Of a stretch of DNA of 41,726 nucleotides, positions 3,937 through 13,830 are shown one piece after another (within the stretch, counting starts at the first letter, position 1; each line of letters starts with the position of its first letter). A program made the position numbers and the translations under genes. The notes below the pieces were generated by a model that was not told the DNA's origin, made no database searches, and saw only the letters and a list, made by a program, of their open reading frames with translations. Source of the DNA: Trueperaceae bacterium (GTDB lineage: Bacteria; Deinococcota; Deinococci; Deinococcales; Trueperaceae). Location of the stretch: the NCBI GenBank assembly GCA_013697735.1, contig JACCWH010000182.1:1-41726 (forward strand), written 5' to 3'.

Positions 3937-4716
3937 TCAGAGGATCTTCGAGAGGAACGCCTTGGTGCGCTCCTCCCGAGGCGCGAGGAAGAAGTGCTCG
4001 GGCGTTCCCACTTCGACGATCTGCCCCTGATCCATGAAGATGACCCGGTCACCGACCTCGCGAGCGAACCCCATCTCGTGCGTCACGACGATCATCGTCA
4101 TGCCCTCCTGCGCGAGAGCGACCATCACCTCGAGCACCTCGCCGATGACCTCCGGGTCGAGCGCGCTGGTGGGCTCGTCGAAGAGCATCACCTTGGGGCC
4201 CATCGTGAGGGCACGCGCGATCGCCACGCGTTGCTGCTGCCCACCCGAGAGTTGCCCGGGGAACTTGAGCGCCTGCTCCGGGATCCCGACCTTGTCGAGG
4301 AAGAAGCGCGCGCGCTCCTCGGCCTTGCTCTTCTTCCACTTGCGCACGCGGATGGGTGCGAGCGTGATGTTCTCCAAGACCGTGAGGTGCGGGAAGAGAT
4401 TGAACGACTGGAAGACCATGCCGGTCTCTCGTCGCACCTGATCGATGTTGCGCACGTCGTCGGTCAGCTCGGTGCCGTCGACCACGATCCGTCCCTGCTG
4501 GTGCTCCTCGAGGTGGTTGATGCAGCGGATGAGGGTCGACTTGCCCGATCCGGAGGGCCCGATCACCACCACCACCTCCCCCTTGTTCACCGAGAGGCTG
4601 ATGTCGCGCAGCACGTGGAACTCCCCGAACCACTTGTTGAGGCCTTCGATCTCGATGATCGGCTGACCGTCGGTCGGCGCGTCGGCGCGGACGGCGGCGG
4701 GGGCGGTATCAGGCAT
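3937..4716 (-). CDS. Polar amino-acid ABC importer ATPase (AapP/GlnQ type)
   Basis: This is the cytoplasmic ATP-hydrolysing subunit of the amino-acid importer encoded by the genes just upstream. The 259-residue product has Walker A GPSGSGKS at 53-60, a Q-loop in [10 protein letters not shown], signature LSGGQQQ at 156-162, and Walker B MLFDEP at about 177-182 followed by TSALDPE. The sequence is typical of the GlnQ/AapP branch. An extended, Ala/Pro-rich N-terminus of about 18 residues precedes the first strand. Translation is supported by GGAGG six bases before the ATG. The gene starts 21 bases after the second permease gene and is the last of a four-gene operon. Confidence 0.94.
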
Positions 4717-4737: not shown

Positions 4738-5955
4738 TCATCGCGTCCCCACGCCGAGCTGCTTCTCGAGTTGGCGGCTGGCGATCGACATGCGATAGGC
4801 GAAGAAGAAGTAGATCAGCGCCACGAACAAGTAGAGCTCGAGCTTCACGCCCCCCGTGACCCGGAGCGAGGCGGGCTGATTCGCGACGATCTCCGTCACG
4901 CGGAAGAAGTCGGCGAGGCCGACGATGAACACCAGCGACGTGTCCTTGAAGAGACCGATCGCCTGGCCGACGATCGCCGGGATCACGGCGCGGAGGGCCT
5001 GCGGGAGCACGATGAGCGACGTCGTCAGCCACCCCCCTAGACCGAGCGCGCGCGCCGCTTCCGTCTGCCCCCGCGGAACGGACTGGAGGCCGCCACGCAC
5101 GTTCTCGGCCATGTAGGCGGCCGAGAAGAGCGTGATGGCGACGTACGCCCTCAGGATCGCCGGGAGGTTGTTGGGGTCGGTGTTGAGGAAGAGCGGCAGC
5201 AACAACGACGCCACGAAGAGCCACATGATGAGGGGCGCGCCGCGCACGATCTCGATGAAGGCGATGCAGGTGTACTTGATCGCCGGGAGCTTGCTGCGGC
5301 GACCGAGTGCCAGCGCGACGCCGAGGGGGAAGCTCGGCACGATCCCGGTGAACAAGATGAGCGTGAGCATGAAGCCGCCCCAGTCGCGCGCCGGCACGAT
5401 GCGCAAGAGGCCGCTCCCGGGCGTGACGCCGTAGAGCAGGAAGAAACCGAGGAAGAGCCAGGCGGCCCAGGCCCACGGGAGCGCGCGCACGAGCGCTGGT
5501 CGCGCGGCTCCGAGGGCGTAGCCGACCACGGAGGCGGCGAGCACACCCGTCCAGAGGACTCTCGCCGACGGCCAGAAGAGGATCGCGATCACGGTGACCA
5601 CCGCCACGAAACCGACGAGCGACCAGAAGAGTCCGCGCAGGATCTCGTTGCTGCGCCCCGCGCCGCCCATCACTCCGATGAGCGCCATCATCGCGGCCAG
5701 TACGGCCATGGGGCGCCACAGCAGGTCGGCGGGGTAGCGGTAGACGGCGAAGAGGCGTTGGTTCGCCCAGACCTGCCCCCACGAGGCGTCGAACAGGGCC
5801 CACGCCACCACGGCGATCACGACGTAGCCCACGAAGAGGCCGGTGACGACCGTGAGCAGCGTGTTGGCGGGTGAGCTGAAGAGGTTGCGGCGGATCCAGC
5901 CACCGATACCGGCCACGCCGGCAGGTGCGGGGCGAGGGGGGATGACTTCGAACAT
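4738..5955 (-). CDS. Polar amino-acid ABC importer permease (AapM type)
   Basis: This inner-membrane subunit of an Aap/Bzt-like general L-amino-acid importer has 405 residues. It begins with a segment (SPANTLLTVVTG) typical of AapM, then several hydrophobic helices, and the EAA loop (QTEAARALGLGG) near residues 297-308, which contacts the ATPase. The length fits AapM, which is longer than ordinary HisM-type permeases. Its start overlaps the stop of the preceding permease gene in TGATG (5953-5957), which suggests translational coupling. The likely substrates are glutamate, glutamine, aspartate or a broader polar set; this is inferred from the family, not seen. Confidence 0.9.
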   Translation of the reverse strand: MFEVIPPRPAPAGVAGIGGWIRRNLFSSPANTLLTVVTGLFVGYVVIAVVAWALFDASWGQVWANQRLFAVYRYPADLLWRPMAVLAAMMALIGVMGGAGRSNEILRGLFWSLVGFVAVVTVIAILFWPSARVLWTGVLAASVVGYALGAARPALVRALPWAWAAWLFLGFFLLYGVTPGSGLLRIVPARDWGGFMLTLILFTGIVPSFPLGVALALGRRSKLPAIKYTCIAFIEIVRGAPLIMWLFVASLLLPLFLNTDPNNLPAILRAYVAITLFSAAYMAENVRGGLQSVPRGQTEAARALGLGGWLTTSLIVLPQALRAVIPAIVGQAIGLFKDTSLVFIVGLADFFRVTEIVANQPASLRVTGGVKLELYLFVALIYFFFAYRMSIASRQLEKQLGVGTR

Positions 5956-7769
5956 CAGCGCTCCACCAGGGCGAGCCTGTCGTTCACGATGTTGAGGACG
6001 AATGCGAAGACGAAGCTGATCAGCAGGTACGACGCGATGAGCAGGAGCGCCACGGGCACGGAGGCGCCCGTCTGGTTCTGCACGATCGTGGCGATCACGA
6101 AGAGCTCGCCGTAGCCCGCGAGCGGCGCGAGCGAGCTGTTCTTCGTGAGGTTGAGGTACTGGCTGATGACGGGTGGGAGCACGATCCGCAGCGCCTGCGG
6201 AAAGACCACCAGCGAGAAGGTCTGGCTCGGTGAGAGACCGAGCGCGAGGGCCGCTTCGCGCTGCCCCTTCGCGACCGCTTGGATGCCGCCGCGCACGATT
6301 TCGCCGATGAATGCCGAGGTGTACACGACGAGTGCGAGCAGGAGCGCGAGATAGTTGACGGTGAGTCGCATGCCGCCCTCGTAGCTCGAGACGGGGACGT
6401 GGACGCGCGACAGTACGAGTGGGCCAGCCGGAAGGAGTTCGACGTCCGCCTCGAGCGGCACGATGTCGTCGCGCGACTCGGCCGCCGCCGCGCCGCCGAA
6501 CACCGAGAACGGGTTCAGGGCCGGCGCCACCTCCGCCGACCGGACGGTCCCGGAAGGCGAGAAGGCGGGCGTGCGCACCTGTCCGTCGCGGTCGGCGACG
6601 ATATGGCGTTCGTACCCCACCACGGTCATCACGAGCCGCACGCCGCCGTAACCGATGCCGGTCTCGGCATCGGACTCCTCACCGGGCGTGAACTCGCCGT
6701 CGCCGTCTCGATCGACGTAGACGACCCCGCGGCTCGGAAAGCGCGTGAAGTGGATGGCGAAGCCGCGCTCCGCCGCCTCCTCGGGGTCGCCGAAGTCGAC
6801 CACGGCCGCTTCGACGTTTCGCTCGAGGATCATCGGGAACCGGAACGTGGAGCGCACGAGCTGCCCGGACTCGGTGATGTTCTGCGTGGAGGCGGTGAGC
6901 TCCGCCTCGGCGATTCGGACGATCGTGCTCGCGAACGGCATCAGCGGATCACGCGGGCCCCGAACGCCGTTGCCGTCGAGATCGCGATAGACGACGCCGC
7001 GACCACGATCGATCGTGAAGTCGACGGCGAGGCCGTCGGGAAGCGTGCGATCGAGCGAGGCGACGTAGTACCCGCCGGCCGCGATCGCGGCGAGGGCCAC
7101 CAGCGGCAGGGGCCAGACCCGGACCGGCCGCTCGGAGCGTTGCGCGAGCCGGCGCCGCCACACGACGCCGACGACTGCGACGACCACCGCGAGCACGAGC
7201 CAAGGCACCCAGGCACCGAACCGGTACGTCGGATAGAGGAACGGGAAGGCGAGCCCGACGTTCGATAGGTAGAGGCCGCCGGGGATCTCGATCGGGTTGT
7301 TGATCCGCGGAGGGATGGGCAGCAGCACGGCCGTGTACCAGAACACGATCTGCACCGCGAGGGGGATGTTGCGCAGGAGTTCGATGTAGACCGTCGCGAT
7401 CGATCGCACCAGCCAGTTCGATGCCAGGCGCATGACGCCCACCGCGATCCCGATGAGACTCGCCAGGATCACGCCGATTCCGGCGATCTTCAGGGTGTTG
7501 AGGAAGCCGATGAGGAGCGCCCGCCAGTACGGGTCGTTTGGCGTGTAGGGGATCGGCGTCTCGGCGATCGGGATACCGGCGCGCGATCCCAACCACGAGA
7601 AATCCGCGGGCAGGTTGGCCCTGCCGAGTGCGTTGAGCGTGTTCGTCACGAGGACGAAGACGCCGAGGGCGATGACGGCGACGAAGACGATCTGGGCGAG
7701 GATGCCGATCGTCTTGACGTTGCGCCAGAACGGGATCCGGAGGACGGGATCGCGGTCCGCGAGCGCCAT
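5955..7769 (-). CDS. AapQ-type amino-acid ABC permease with large Ca-loop insertion
   Basis: This is the first permease subunit of the Aap-like importer. At 604 residues it is about 200 longer than the usual roughly 400-residue AapQ. The N-terminal part (helices near 22-43 and 88-112, then a conserved stretch ending ELLRNIPLAVQ near 130-140) and the C-terminal part (EAALALGLSPSQ near 505-516, then KNSSLAPL) match the family. Between a helix at about 221-238 and the next at about 470-488 lies a mostly soluble stretch of about 230 residues. It holds two similar blocks: GVVYRDLDGNG (residues 258-268) and GVVYVDRDGDG (348-358), the latter followed by EFTPGEE. These DxDGxG loops resemble Ca-binding loops of secreted repeat domains. 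The ATG is preceded by GAGG. Reading across the whole frame is uninterrupted, so this is not a frameshift or fusion artefact. Confidence 0.88.
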   Translation of the reverse strand: MALADRDPVLRIPFWRNVKTIGILAQIVFVAVIALGVFVLVTNTLNALGRANLPADFSWLGSRAGIPIAETPIPYTPNDPYWRALLIGFLNTLKIAGIGVILASLIGIAVGVMRLASNWLVRSIATVYIELLRNIPLAVQIVFWYTAVLLPIPPRINNPIEIPGGLYLSNVGLAFPFLYPTYRFGAWVPWLVLAVVVAVVGVVWRRRLAQRSERPVRVWPLPLVALAAIAAGGYYVASLDRTLPDGLAVDFTIDRGRGVVYRDLDGNGVRGPRDPLMPFASTIVRIAEAELTASTQNITESGQLVRSTFRFPMILERNVEAAVVDFGDPEEAAERGFAIHFTRFPSRGVVYVDRDGDGEFTPGEESDAETGIGYGGVRLVMTVVGYERHIVADRDGQVRTPAFSPSGTVRSAEVAPALNPFSVFGGAAAAESRDDIVPLEADVELLPAGPLVLSRVHVPVSSYEGGMRLTVNYLALLLALVVYTSAFIGEIVRGGIQAVAKGQREAALALGLSPSQTFSLVVFPQALRIVLPPVISQYLNLTKNSSLAPLAGYGELFVIATIVQNQTGASVPVALLLIASYLLISFVFAFVLNIVNDRLALVER

Positions 7770-7929: not shown

Positions 7930-7954
7930 CTTGGGCCCCCCGAGGGGGCCCAAG
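7930..7954 (-). promoter_or_regulatory. Intercistronic hairpin between binding protein and permease genes
   Basis: A perfect 11-base-pair stem (7930-7940 with 7944-7954) with a CGA loop lies between the binding-protein stop and the permease start. No T-run follows on the minus strand, so it is more likely a 3' stabiliser or partial attenuator than a full terminator. The rest of the 226-base gap (7770-7995) shows no gene; a GAGG ribosome-binding site lies at its permease end. Confidence 0.7.
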
Positions 7955-7995: not shown

Positions 7996-9006
7996 TCAGT
8001 TGAAGGGCGGTGAGTAGAGCAGGCCGCCACCCGTGTACGGAGCGTTGAGTCCGCGCGGGATATCGAACTGCGTGTCGGGGCCGAGGTGACGATCGTAGAT
8101 CTCGGCGTAGTTCCCCACCTGCAGGATCGCCTGGTACATGGCGTCGGCGGAGAGGCCGAGGCCCTGGACCTGGTCGGGATCGACACCGAGCATACGGCGG
8201 ACCTGCGGGTTCGGGCTCTCGAGGGCTTCGTCGATGTTGTCGGAGGTGATGCCGTACTCCTCCGCGGCGAACGTGGCGTAGACGACCCACTTGACGACGT
8301 CGTACCACTGGTCGTCACCGTGCAGCACGGCCGGCCCGAGCGGCTCCTTGGAGATCGTCGCATCCATGATGCGGTGATCGGACGGGACGCCGAGGGTGGG
8401 CAGGAAGGAGGCGAGGCCCGACTTGTCCGTCGTCCAGCCGTCGCATTGGCCGTCGTCGTAGGCCGAGACGAGCTGCGGCGCGCTCTCGAAGATCACGGGG
8501 GTGAACTGGACGTCGAGTGCACCGAGCACGTCGGCGAGGTTCAGCTCGGTCGTGGTGCCCGACTGCACGCAGATCGAGCGCCCCTCGAAGTCGGCGAGCG
8601 TGTTGATGCCCGAGTCGGTGCGGACCATGAAGCCCTGACCGTCGTAGAACGTCGGAGCCGTGAAGTTCAGGCCGACCGTCGTGTCGCGGCTGAGCGTGAA
8701 GGTCGTGTTGCGGATCAGGACGTCGACCTCGCCGGACTGCACGGCGGTGAAGCGCTCCTGCGCCGACAGGGCGCGGAAGGTGACTGCGTTCGCGTCACCG
8801 AGCACGGCAGCGGCGAGCGAGCGACAGAAGTCGACGTCGAATCCTTCGAATTCACCGGCGGCGTCGACGCTACCGAAGCCGGGGAGGGTCTGGTTGACGC
8901 CGCAGCGGAGTTCACCGCGGGCCTGGACCTCTTGGAGCTTGCCTTGTCCGAACGCCGTGCCGACGATCAGCACGAGTACGGCAAGGACGAGGAGTGTCTT
9001 GCGCAT
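7996..9006 (-). CDS. Polar amino-acid ABC importer binding protein (AapJ/BztA type)
   Basis: This is the extracytoplasmic substrate-binding subunit (family 3) of the importer. The 336-residue product has a signal peptide (MRKTLLVLAVLVLIVGTAFG) and family motifs RGELRCGVNQ, GFDVDFCRSLAAAVLGD, RFTAVQSGEVDVL and RNTTFT, as in AapJ/BztA. Four cysteines (RCGV, DFCR, SICV, GQCDG) are kept and could form disulfides. A longer start at 9024 is possible, but the ATG at 9006 has GAGGTGG close upstream and begins directly at the signal peptide. It is the promoter-proximal gene of the operon, followed by a strong hairpin and then the permease genes. The exact substrate cannot be told from the sequence. 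Confidence 0.93.
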   Translation of the reverse strand: MRKTLLVLAVLVLIVGTAFGQGKLQEVQARGELRCGVNQTLPGFGSVDAAGEFEGFDVDFCRSLAAAVLGDANAVTFRALSAQERFTAVQSGEVDVLIRNTTFTLSRDTTVGLNFTAPTFYDGQGFMVRTDSGINTLADFEGRSICVQSGTTTELNLADVLGALDVQFTPVIFESAPQLVSAYDDGQCDGWTTDKSGLASFLPTLGVPSDHRIMDATISKEPLGPAVLHGDDQWYDVVKWVVYATFAAEEYGITSDNIDEALESPNPQVRRMLGVDPDQVQGLGLSADAMYQAILQVGNYAEIYDRHLGPDTQFDIPRGLNAPYTGGGLLYSPPFN

Positions 9007-9071
9007 ACGATCCACCTCTTCCATGAAATTGCACTACGCCCGCATGTCGGGTTTATGTTGGGCGTTCGCTC

Positions 9072-9101
9072 ATGGTACCCGGCCGAACGCACACCTGTAA
9101 A
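9072..9101 (-). promoter_or_regulatory. Candidate promoter of the amino-acid importer operon
   Basis: On the minus strand TTTACA (9096-9101) and TACCAT (9072-9077) are separated by 18 bases. This gives a sigma-70-like promoter about 65 bases upstream of the binding-protein start. It is the best match in the intergenic region, but the -10 has only four of six consensus bases. Confidence 0.45.
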
Positions 9102-9112
9102 GGCGCGCACCG

Positions 9113-9128
9113 GTGCATGAACATGCAC
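9113..9128. promoter_or_regulatory. Palindromic operator-like site
   Basis: GTGCATG and CATGCAC form a perfect seven-base inverted repeat around AA, ending 11 bases upstream of the candidate -35 at 9101. The two-base centre is too tight for a good RNA hairpin, and no U tract follows. A binding site for a dimeric regulator of the importer operon is therefore more likely than a terminator for the CsgG-like gene. Confidence 0.45.
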
Positions 9129-9146
9129 GGGCACGCGACGGGAGCG

Positions 9147-9944
9147 TCAGCGAATACGCGGCGGCAACCCGAGGGACGCCTGCTCGACCGCGTCGCGGAT
9201 CGCGTTGCGCAGCGCCACCGCCACGATCGACTCGCGCACCGTCCCGGCTCGCAGGAGGCGCACCGCCTGGCTGAGACCGTCGACGGTGATCTCGGCGTCG
9301 CGCGCGATGCCCAACCCGCGACCGATGCCGACGATCTCCCCCGTGTTCGCATCGACGAAGCGGAGGTCGACGCCGATCCGCGCGGTCGTGACGGTCGATC
9401 CACCGACGAGGCCGAACACGGCACCGCCGGCGGTGGCGCGGTCGAGGCTGAACTCCGAGACGGCGCCCACGAGGATGAGCTCGGCCCCGAGGAGGCGGCC
9501 GACTTCGGCCACCGTGGCGGCGTCGAAGCGGTCGGTGCGGCCGATGTCTTGCTCCACGAGCACGCTCGAGAGCGCCTGCCGCTCGACGAGCCGGAAGCGA
9601 CCGAGGTCGAAGAGCTCGTTCGTGACCACGTCGCCGATGCCGCGACTGAAATCGACGAAGAGGCGCGTGTCGCGTTCGCGCTCAGGCACCACGTCGAGGT
9701 TCACGCGCACCGGGTTGACCTCGACGTCGTAGACGGCGACGAGGTAGCGCGCCTCGCGCTCGAGCGGCGGCAGCGCGTACGGGCGCACGTCGCTGCTCTC
9801 GGTCGGTGCGGCGGCGGCGGGTGCGCACGCCACCATGATGATGGCGACGATGATGGCGAACGCCGCCATGAGCAGCGCCCGCGCGGCGGAGAGGTCTGGG
9901 AAGCGAGGCATCGAGAGGCGACGATACCAGGCGCCCCCCATCAC
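9147..9944 (-). CDS. CsgG-like lipoprotein
   Basis: This is a probable lipoprotein with a CsgG/LpoB-type fold, a family that includes the curli secretion pore and various envelope proteins. The up to 265-residue product has an N-terminal hydrophobic stretch ending in IIMVAC, a weak lipobox with its cysteine near residue 40. Family features follow: YLVAVYDVEVNP, NELFDLGRFRLVERQALSSVLVEQ, GRLLGAELILVGAVSEF and VDANTGEIVG. No other curli genes are nearby, so a curli role is not supported. The start is uncertain: GTG 9944, ATG 9941 or ATG 9911, none with a good ribosome-binding site. The gene lies just downstream of the V-ATPase operon and may be read with it. Confidence 0.75.
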   Translation of the reverse strand: MMGGAWYRRLSMPRFPDLSAARALLMAAFAIIVAIIMVACAPAAAAPTESSDVRPYALPPLEREARYLVAVYDVEVNPVRVNLDVVPERERDTRLFVDFSRGIGDVVTNELFDLGRFRLVERQALSSVLVEQDIGRTDRFDAATVAEVGRLLGAELILVGAVSEFSLDRATAGGAVFGLVGGSTVTTARIGVDLRFVDANTGEIVGIGRGLGIARDAEITVDGLSQAVRLLRAGTVRESIVAVALRNAIRDAVEQASLGLPPRIR

Positions 9945-9951
9945 GAGGTGA

Positions 9952-9987
9952 GCGGCGAATCAGGCGCTCGCGGCGAATCAGGCGCTC
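9952..9987. repeat. 18-base tandem duplication across the atpD stop codon
   Basis: Two identical 18-base units, 9952-9969 and 9970-9987, lie head to tail. On the minus strand each contains an in-frame TGA, so the real stop at 9978-9980 is followed by a second TGA six codons later. The duplication leaves the protein end unchanged. Confidence 0.85.
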
Positions 9988-10649
9988 GCGGCGGCCTCCT
10001 CCGCGGCAGCGACCTTCTCGGCGGCGTCGCGCGCCTCGAGCTTCGCCTTGATGCGCTTGAGGACGGTGACCTCCTCGAGCGCGCGTTGATCCAAGACGGA
10101 TCGGATGTCTTTGATCTGCCGAGCGATGTTGGGGATCACGAGCTGCTCGAGCGCGTTCACGCGGCGGCTCGTCTTCTTGATCTCCTCGCCGATTCGCCGG
10201 AGGCGCGTCTCGGTGGCGGCGACGCGGATGATCGCCTCGGTGAGCGCCTTGAACTGCACGCTCGCGTCGAGCGTCCGCCCCCCCACCCCCACGGGCGAGA
10301 AGGCTGCGGCGCCGTCTGCGAAGTCGGGCGCTTGCACCTGCGGCACCTTGACCCCGAAGAGGTTCTCGACGGTGATCCCCACTTCGACGGTGGTTCCGCT
10401 CGCGAGTGCCAGGCTCCGAACAGCCTCCGGACCGTCCCAGGCGTTCGCGAGGAAGAGGGAGAGGTAGGCTTCCTGGCTCGCCTTCGTCAGGTCGCGCCGC
10501 GCCTGCAGCGAGACCTTCACCAGATCGAAGAACTCGCCTATGAGCGCGTCGCGCTTGCGCTTGAGCAGGTCGGCGCCGCGGTTCGCGAGCTTGAGCTGAT
10601 CGCGGCGCTGCAGCAGGTTCGAGCGGGTCGGTGCAATGGTCTCGGCCAC
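9978..10649 (-). CDS. atpD: V-type ATP synthase subunit D
   Basis: This is the central rotor shaft subunit (NtpD/VatD) of the V/A-type ATPase. The 223-residue product begins with the family pattern (APTRSNLLQRRDQLKLA) and is mostly two long helices with a middle segment, as expected for a coiled-coil shaft. The C-terminus is Ala/Glu-rich (AAEEAAASA). It starts with GTG nine bases after the atpB stop codon, with GAGG upstream. It is the last gene of the nine-gene ATPase operon. Its stop codon sits inside an 18-base tandem duplication. Confidence 0.94.
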   Translation of the reverse strand: MAETIAPTRSNLLQRRDQLKLANRGADLLKRKRDALIGEFFDLVKVSLQARRDLTKASQEAYLSLFLANAWDGPEAVRSLALASGTTVEVGITVENLFGVKVPQVQAPDFADGAAAFSPVGVGGRTLDASVQFKALTEAIIRVAATETRLRRIGEEIKKTSRRVNALEQLVIPNIARQIKDIRSVLDQRALEEVTVLKRIKAKLEARDAAEKVAAAEEAAASA

Positions 10650-10658
10650 GGCTCTACC

Positions 10659-12074
<1,416 letters not shown>

Positions 12075-12090
12075 GCGGTGCCTCCGGGTA

Positions 12091-13830
12091 TCACGCCGCG
12101 ACCGCGAAGCCGGCGTCGAGCTGCTTCAGCACGTCGTCGCGGTAGGCGGGGAAGTCGTCCTCCGGGACGTACCGGGAACGGTTGATCTTCTCGGTCACGG
12201 GGTTCGCCAGGATCTCGTCGATCGTGGCGCCCTCTTCGAGCGACGCGCGGGCGCGCTCGTAGAACTTGAGCATCATCTGCAGCATGCCGTACGCCTTCTC
12301 GAGGCTGCACGAGGCGTCGACCGGATCGAAGCCGTTCTGCTGCAGGAAGTCCTGGCGCAAGATGCGACCGGCTTCGATGATGAGCCGCTCCTGATCCTGG
12401 AGCGCGTCCGGACCGACGAGCTGGACGACCTCCTGCAGGTCGCTCTCGCGCTGCAGCAGCCCCACGGCGCGCTCGACGAGTTCGGGGTAGTCCTGCGCGA
12501 CGTGCTCGCGGTACCACGGCTCGAGGATGTCGGTGAAGAGCGAGTAGGAGCGGTTCCAGTTGATCGCCGGGAAGTGCCGCCGCCGCGCGAGCGACGCGTC
12601 GAGCGCCCAGAAGCAACCGGTGATGCGGAGCGTCGCCTGCGTGACCGGCTCGGAGAAGTCCCCGCCGGCGGGGCTGACCGCGCCGATGATCGAGACGGCG
12701 CCCTGCTCGCCCGCGAGCGTGGTGACGCGGCCGCCGCGCTCGTAGAACGCCGCGAGGCGCGAGGCGAGGTAGGGGGGGTACCCCTCCTCCGCCGGCATCT
12801 CCTCGAGACGCGACGAGATCTCGCGCAGCGCCTCGGCCCAGCGTGAGGTCGAGTCGGCCATGATCGAGACGCCGTAGCCCTGGTCGCGGAAGTACTCGGC
12901 GAGCGTGATGCCGGTGTAGATCGAGGCTTCACGCGCGGCCACGGGCATGTTCGACGTGTTCGCGATGAGCACCGTGCGGTGCATGAGCGGGTTGCCCGTC
13001 TGCGGGTCCTCGAGTTCGGGGAACTCGACGAGCACGTCGGTCATCTCGTTGCCACGCTCGCCGCAACCGACGTAGACGACGATGTCGGCGTTGCCGTACT
13101 TGGCGACCGACTGCTGGGTGACCGTCTTGCCCGAGCCGAATGGGCCGGGGATGGCGGCGGTGCCGCCCATCGTGAGCGGGAAGAGCACGTCGAGGATGCG
13201 CATCCCGGTGAGGAACGGCGTCACCGGGTCGAGCTTCTTCTCGAACGGGCGCGGCTGTCGCACTGGCCACGGGTGCATCATCTTGAGCTCGGTGCCGTCG
13301 GCGAGCGTGGCGATCACGTCGTCGACGGTGTACTCGCCCGCCGGGACGATGCTTTCGATGGTGCCGCCCTTGCCGGGCGGGACGAGGATCTTGTGCGTGA
13401 AGGAGAACTCGGGCACGGTCCCGATCGGGTGTCCGGCCTTCACTTCGTCGCCCTTCGCGACGCCGGGCGTGAACGCCCACGTCGCTTCGCGCGAGAGCGA
13501 GTTGACGGTGATGCCCCGGTCGATGTACGTGCCCGAGGCCTCGAAGATCTTGTCGAGCGGGCGCTGGATGCCGTCGAAGATCCCGTTGAGCATGCCGGGC
13601 CCGAGCTCGACGGCGAGCGGCAGACCGGTCGAGACGACCTCCTGGCCGACCGTGAGGCCGCCGGTGTCTTCGTAGACCTGCACGAACGCGGTGGTGCCGT
13701 CGAGACGGATGATCTCACCGACGAGGTTCTCCTCGCCGACGCGGACGATGTCGTACATCCGCGCACCCATCATGCCCTCGGCGATGACCGCCGGACCCGA
13801 GATGCGTTGGACCTTGCCTGTGATCGCCAT
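12091..13830 (-). CDS. atpA: V-type ATP synthase catalytic subunit A
   Basis: This is the catalytic subunit of the A3B3 head, which binds and turns over ATP. The 579-residue product has the N-terminal barrel ([16 protein letters not shown]), the A-subunit-specific non-homologous region around residues 115-190, and P-loop GPFGSGKT at 229-236. [31 protein letters not shown] and [20 protein letters not shown] follow. The size matches V/A-type A subunits. AGGAGG stands four bases before the ATG. The gene is spaced by 16 bases from atpB and follows atpF. Confidence 0.97.

Follow-up and report, generated by a model that had tools for sequence, protein, structure and literature searches.

A probable pair of SdrD_B-like domains in an extracytoplasmic loop of the AapQ-type permeases of Trueperaceae

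What accounts for the unusual length of an AapQ-type permease encoded in the Trueperaceae, relatives of Deinococcus, and what might its additional residues do for the importer to which it belongs? The question is raised by the window analysed here, which is the whole of the 41,726-nt contig JACCWH010000182.1 of a Trueperaceae bacterium (assembly GCA_013697735.1) and to which the coordinates in Table 1 refer. An earlier note, made from the letters of this DNA, had claimed that the aapQ frame runs unbroken from 7769 to 5955 and that its product exceeds the AapQ norm by about 200 residues. Both claims agree with what we find: a single ORF opens with ATG and continues uninterrupted for 604 residues, and the excess of ~200 aa follows from the lengths of standard AapQ homologues, which are mostly 390-430 aa when measured by open frame. 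The product combines a BPD_transp_1 and HEQRo_perm_3TM core with the EAA motif, and its gene lies beside those for a binding protein, a second permease and an ATPase, as is characteristic of AapQ-type permeases and their operons. The core is split by the insertion, with HEQRo_perm_3TM (TIGR01726; residues 83-147, 48.4 bits versus a cut-off of 42.2) on its N-terminal side and BPD_transp_1 (PF00528) on its C-terminal side, where the latter is recognised at residues 472-599 alone (1.1e-14, above cut-off). None of the equivalog cut-offs of NCBIfam was reached by this protein, for which transport of amino acids in a broad sense is predicted.

Table 1. Coordinates, in the window, of the aapQ-type gene, the predicted parts of its product and the neighbouring genes of the operon
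Feature	Position (nt)	Strand	Evidence
aapP-type ATPase	3937..4716	-	ABC_tran 1.2e-40
aapM-type second permease, without such an insertion	4738..5955	-	PF00528 at 209-398
aapQ-type permease gene with insertion	5955..7769	-	ORF and translation; 604 aa
N-terminal membrane part, residues 1-238	7056..7769	-	AF2 model, pLDDT 86.8
Extracytoplasmic insertion, residues 239-469	6363..7055	-	Alignment with insertion-free AapQ; profile in 27 Trueperaceae genomes
Putative SdrD_B-like domain 1, residues ~254-344	6738..7010	-	hhalign score 42; beta strands in AF2 model
Calcium-type loop 1, residues 263-274 (DLDGNGVRGPRD)	6948..6983	-	Orthologue alignment
Putative SdrD_B-like domain 2, residues ~345-405	6555..6737	-	hhalign score 40; beta strands in AF2 model
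Calcium-type loop 2, residues 353-364 (DRDGDGEFTPGE)	6678..6713	-	EF-hand-type positions 1, 3, 5, 12 conserved
Ala/Ser/Pro-rich linker with FSxFG element, residues 406-440	6450..6554	-	Low model confidence
Return strands to membrane, residues 441-470	6360..6449	-	Alignment
C-terminal permease core, residues 470-604	5955..6362	-	PF00528, 4YMS match
aapJ-type substrate-binding protein, same operon	7996..9024	-	SBP_bac_3 5.7e-18

The surroundings of the gene contain two further features of interest in their own right. A perfect hairpin, CUUGGGCCCCC-UCG-GGGGGCCCAAG, occupies positions 7930-7954 of the minus strand in the gap between aapJ and aapQ, shortly 3' of the aapJ stop and with no T run, and it possibly protects or limits the transcript. 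A structured RNA element in the same gap was considered and rejected, as there is no Rfam match and the overall fold has a z of -0.98. On the plus strand, a 1037-residue frame at 9072-12185 lies opposite several minus-strand frames, one of which reads like a V-type ATPase subunit; the plus-strand frame is probably spurious, the genome being high in GC.

The insertion, which comprises ~230 residues, lies directly ahead of the helix from which the chain continues into the EAA coupling motif. In the AlphaFold2 (AF2) model, the part of the protein that precedes it forms helices at residues 18-50, 81-113, 119-132, 137-149, 184-212 and 220-239, and the helix that directly follows it, at 471-497, runs into the coupling helix with the motif EAALALG (505-511). 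Importers of this type whose structures are solved have the helix before the EAA motif entering the membrane from outside and the EAA loop in the cytoplasm. Homology to 4YMS assigns this topology to helix 471-497, and the turn preceding helix 220-239, WRRRLAQRSERPVRVW, is arginine-rich and positively charged and would lie inside; on both grounds the insertion is placed on the extracytoplasmic side, where the earlier note had put it. The alignment and the AF2 model together depict an importer permease with a folded domain in one of its periplasmic loops. Toward its end, this loop includes a linker with a pLDDT of ~45 at residues 413-432, which is mostly missing in three orthologues, and then, in the return strands, a PLVxS...GG element that is common to insertion-bearing and ordinary AapQ proteins.

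The identity of the inserted sequence emerged from profile comparisons. Searched alone against Pfam and NCBIfam, the insert of the window yielded nothing at E<=1, and no curated model exceeded its cut-off on the Trueperaceae insert; Pfam SdrD_B gave weak E values in the orthologues at L030 (0.014), L041 (0.032) and L035 (0.25), the best of them, at 16 bits, being short of the 29.7 needed for a single sequence. When a profile of the insertion was compared with a local SdrD_B set, made up of 13 strong domains from Deinococcota proteins, hhalign aligned repeat 1 (score 42.3) and repeat 2 (39.6) separately, both to the same template columns, from 4 to 56-59; 30 column-shuffled controls scored at most 16.0. 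Because both repeats match the SdrD_B columns, we read the insertion as two tandem SdrD_B-like units followed by the linker and the return strands, and it is very probable that they are indeed two domains resembling the B domains of adhesins. An internal duplication is supported by the match of both halves to SdrD_B and not by direct full-length similarity between them, as the repeat-to-repeat alignment spans only the 22 residues of the calcium-loop region. The earlier note had proposed a calcium-stabilised domain with no family name; the conserved domain stands, and the hhalign results would replace the single nameless unit by two of the SdrD_B type.

Structure prediction gave a mixed picture of the putative Ig-like beta fold. 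The full-length AF2 model, for which the alignment was drawn from proteins of the window and of certain loci and had few rows with the insertion, is beta-rich over the two domains, with a pLDDT of ~80-95 per block except in the linker, and strands of domain 2 are placed at 347-352, 378-391 and 397-399. Among the Foldseek matches listed for this model, essentially the permease core is represented, by short alignments. Modelled in isolation, the insert reached a pLDDT of 45.6 and its Foldseek matches were meaningless, with no solved fold among them; the insert profile likewise retrieved from the PDB only chance matches to protein A. A derivation of the window's insert from a substrate-binding protein was also considered and was rejected by a score of -2.9 bits versus a binding-protein profile (built from 106 binding-protein frames of the fetched loci).

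Each of the two repeats begins with a GVVYxDxDGxG block (residues 258-268 and 348-358), and the positions that the earlier note gave for the acidic motifs are exact: DLDGNG at residues 263-268 (nt 6966-6983), DRDGDG at 353-358 (nt 6696-6713) and TPGEE at 361-365 (nt 6675-6689). The repetition is not a matter of chance, since, when the insert was shuffled 100,000 times, two D.[DN].[DN]G motifs arose in only 4 trials and the longer G.V[YF].D.DG.G motif in 0. The motif block is conserved across 26 aligned orthologues, in which the two loops fare differently. Loop 2 has the EF-hand-type spacing D-x-D/N-x-D/N-G-x-x-x-x-x-E, and the acidic loop expected of an SdrD_B domain is retained at its positions 1, 3 and 12 in every orthologue (D1, D/N3 and E12, each 26/26) and nearly so at D/N5 (25/26) and G6 (23/26); residues D353, E364 and E300 are invariant. 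Loop 1, in contrast, has lost its acidic positions in 7 of the 26, namely six that belong to a single genus, and G014. Of the pair of calcium-binding loops that had been claimed, the domain with such loops is thus conserved, but loop 2 alone is kept throughout and loop 1 is dispensable. Calcium may occupy the conserved EF-hand-type loop, and above all loop 2. In the B1 domain of SdrG and its relatives among the B domains, three bound calcium ions strongly raise the mechanical stability, and the binding in SdrG B1 is very tight, with sub-nanomolar affinity suggested (PMC6232131). Such tightness would suit a structural role better than that of a sensor through which extracellular calcium might gate transport, a role that could otherwise be read from the near-invariance of the EF-hand-type positions of loop 2; as loop 1 is moreover dispensable, we consider ion sensing to be very improbable and, lacking specific support, the least supported among the functional readings.

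A search with the insertion profile detected the insertion once per genome in all of the 27 Trueperaceae genomes that have AapQ, including G014, which is probably the type strain of Truepera radiovictrix, and the conservation in related genomes that the earlier note proposed to check is therefore found throughout these carriers. Among the family's genomes without the insertion, G109 and G110 aside, no full-length AapQ was found, and elsewhere among 111 Deinococcota the profile gave two weak matches in unrelated frames. In a tree from a quick search, the permeases with the insertion fall together in a single clade (SH-aLRT 100). Genome G006 encodes two AapQ proteins, one of 611 residues with the insertion and one of 411 without it; the short copy clusters with the insertion-free permeases of another Deinococcota family (SH-aLRT 98), and its origin by recent loss of the insertion was rejected, as placing it in one clade with the Trueperaceae set gave a p-AU of 0.003. 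The surveys of other phyla, which are samples, showed 69 of 301 Chloroflexota genomes with an AapQ match at E<=1e-40, nearly all of standard length (G111, G260 and G356 being the exceptions), and 124 of 398 Pseudomonadota with a match at E<=1e-50, in none of which was there an alignment gap of the size of the insertion. The insertion is accordingly absent from related families, from most of the Chloroflexota and from the Pseudomonadota sampled, and is not a general property of AapQ proteins, as it might have been.

As a separate observation, the 3.5 Mb genome to which the window belongs (G000) contains 150 PF00528 stretches, which marks an importer-rich organism. So many stretches imply many binding proteins, and it could be imagined that the module serves as a screen for selectivity that bars the wrong ones from docking with AapQ in such a genome; this is improbable, given that the insertion occurs nowhere else in that genome. 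In five close pairs, dN/dS was 0.09-0.39 for the domains, 0.06-0.18 for the membrane part and 0.06-0.60 for the linker, with the insert somewhat above the membrane part in every pair. The insert is under purifying selection, with a constraint weaker than that on the membrane core. Its faster evolution, the loss of loop 1 in two groups and the acceptance of different sequences at the same site in other lineages (described below) would all be compatible with a neutral passenger that the loop merely tolerates, but a passenger would hardly have been kept in all 27 genomes at these dN/dS values and with D353, E364 and E300 unchanged, and we regard neutrality as the least probable of the readings weighed here.

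Additions to the same loop were encountered in two other phyla. The AapQ of a member of the Tectomicrobia (L049:3980-5383) has one short SdrD_B-like domain there, which gives an E of 8.4e-6 with Pfam SdrD_B, below the cut-off, and an hhalign score of 52.7 versus the local SdrD_B set. In the best tree, this permease is sister to the Trueperaceae clade with a non-significant support of 62.9; a shared origin of the two insertions is neither shown nor rejected. Two Chloroflexota permeases, G111 (L042:3962-5632) and G260 (L123:1555-3183), have ~130-160 extra residues in the same place, and these inserts match the binding-protein profile along ~70 residues that belong to a single lobe, scoring 29.7 and 34.1 bits where the best of 1000 shuffled controls reached 4.4 bits. 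BLASTP against the binding protein of the respective genome is in agreement (5e-7 and 6e-5), and the two loops carry what reads, by these matches, as a degenerate piece of one lobe of a binding protein. The AapQ loop before the third core helix appears in these comparisons as a recurrent site for added domains, and the presence there of an SdrD_B-like domain in Tectomicrobia and of a lobe fragment in Chloroflexota suggests that the loop faces the binding protein.

Some neighbouring features of these loci might deserve attention for other reasons. At L049:5380-7362, an AapM-type permease and an AapP-type ATPase are apparently fused in a frame of 660 residues, and at L042:5735-7567, on the minus strand, a 610-residue protein of secreted type that consists of DxDxDG repeats adjoins the Chloroflexota aapQ. 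The third long Chloroflexota AapQ (G356, L124:612-2327; 571 residues) seems by its sequence to have extra membrane segments and no soluble insertion.

How might these observations be brought together? We envisage that the AapQ of Trueperaceae gained tandem SdrD_B-like domains in the extracytoplasmic loop between its second and third core helices, that calcium in the EF-hand-type loops, chiefly the second, would rigidify the domain, and that the rigid module might stand above the periplasmic side of the channel formed by AapQ and AapM, where, as a platform, it might position AapJ or keep hold of it during transport in the manner of MalF P2 with MalE. The location of the insertion, its retention across the family, its restriction to one importer and the lobe-derived inserts of Chloroflexota at the same loop lead us to this reading. 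Both the rigidity of the module and its contact with AapJ are inferred; we would give a calcium-stabilised periplasmic platform, as the overall explanation, an even chance of being correct, and the docking of AapJ by the insertion, argued by analogy, slightly less than that.

The main rival to such a docking platform is a calcium-stabilised brace or spacer, which would stabilise the permease or link it to a component of the envelope such as the wall or a surface layer and would leave AapJ untouched. The B domains of adhesins are mechanical elements with calcium-dependent strength (PMC6232131), SdrD_B-like domains elsewhere in these genomes occur in large and often repetitive frames, and the habitats of T. 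radiovictrix are alkaline, saline and warm (PMC3072082), all of which would suit a brace. Such a function is nevertheless rather unlikely, inasmuch as a single permease per genome carries the insertion although many permeases, to judge by the 150 PF00528 stretches in the genome of the window, face the same envelope, and the lobe fragment of a binding protein that the two Chloroflexota carry at this site indicates a docking face. Returning to the docking platform, we suggest tentatively that different lineages might have added docking modules independently, of the SdrD_B type in Trueperaceae and from a piece of the binding protein in some Chloroflexota. If true, amino acid importers would have arrived by convergence at a device like MalF P2. 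An adhesin-type domain with calcium-type loops that has become fixed in Trueperaceae, together with the additions to the loop in other phyla, provides natural variants for studies of binding-protein capture, and, as the probable type-strain carrier T. radiovictrix is cultured, the proposal can be examined by experiment. No earlier description of the insertion was found in the literature (open-licence papers).

Among known systems, the closest are the AapQ-type permeases of AapJQMP importers, with which the Trueperaceae protein shares gene order, membrane core, EAA motif and an additional pair of helices ahead of the third core helix (at 35-47% identity with standard homologues), and from which it differs by ~200 extra residues where standard AapQ has a short GxPL...GG loop. 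The permease of Art(QN)2 (4YMS) is alike in its core and EAA region (phmmer 8.8e-22; Foldseek 1.8e-5) but is short (220 aa), without an inserted domain and without the extra helix pair. The insert itself resembles SdrD_B (PF17210), the B domain of staphylococcal adhesins, in its GxVxxDxNGNGxxxxGE start, its calcium-type loop, the strands that seem to follow the loop and a DxxGxxxxP element, a likeness of sequence in which the insert nonetheless remains below the Pfam cut-off, lies within a membrane protein rather than in a surface repeat, has a degenerate loop 1 in some members and closes with a long linker. To our knowledge, folded periplasmic domains are rare in importer permeases, MalF P2 of the E. 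coli maltose importer being the best-known case; P2 sits before a different core helix than the AapQ insertion, and we know of no calcium loops in it. The comparison with MalF P2 is an analogy only, because the position in the loop differs and homology was not found, there being no MalF chains up to E 10 in the search of the PDB with the insert profile, which is weak as a test of fold. Within that analogy the two are nonetheless alike, in that P2 (residues 91-271) is likewise a folded domain, of ~180 residues, in a periplasmic loop of the permease, from where it contacts the binding protein MalE (PMC3150292).
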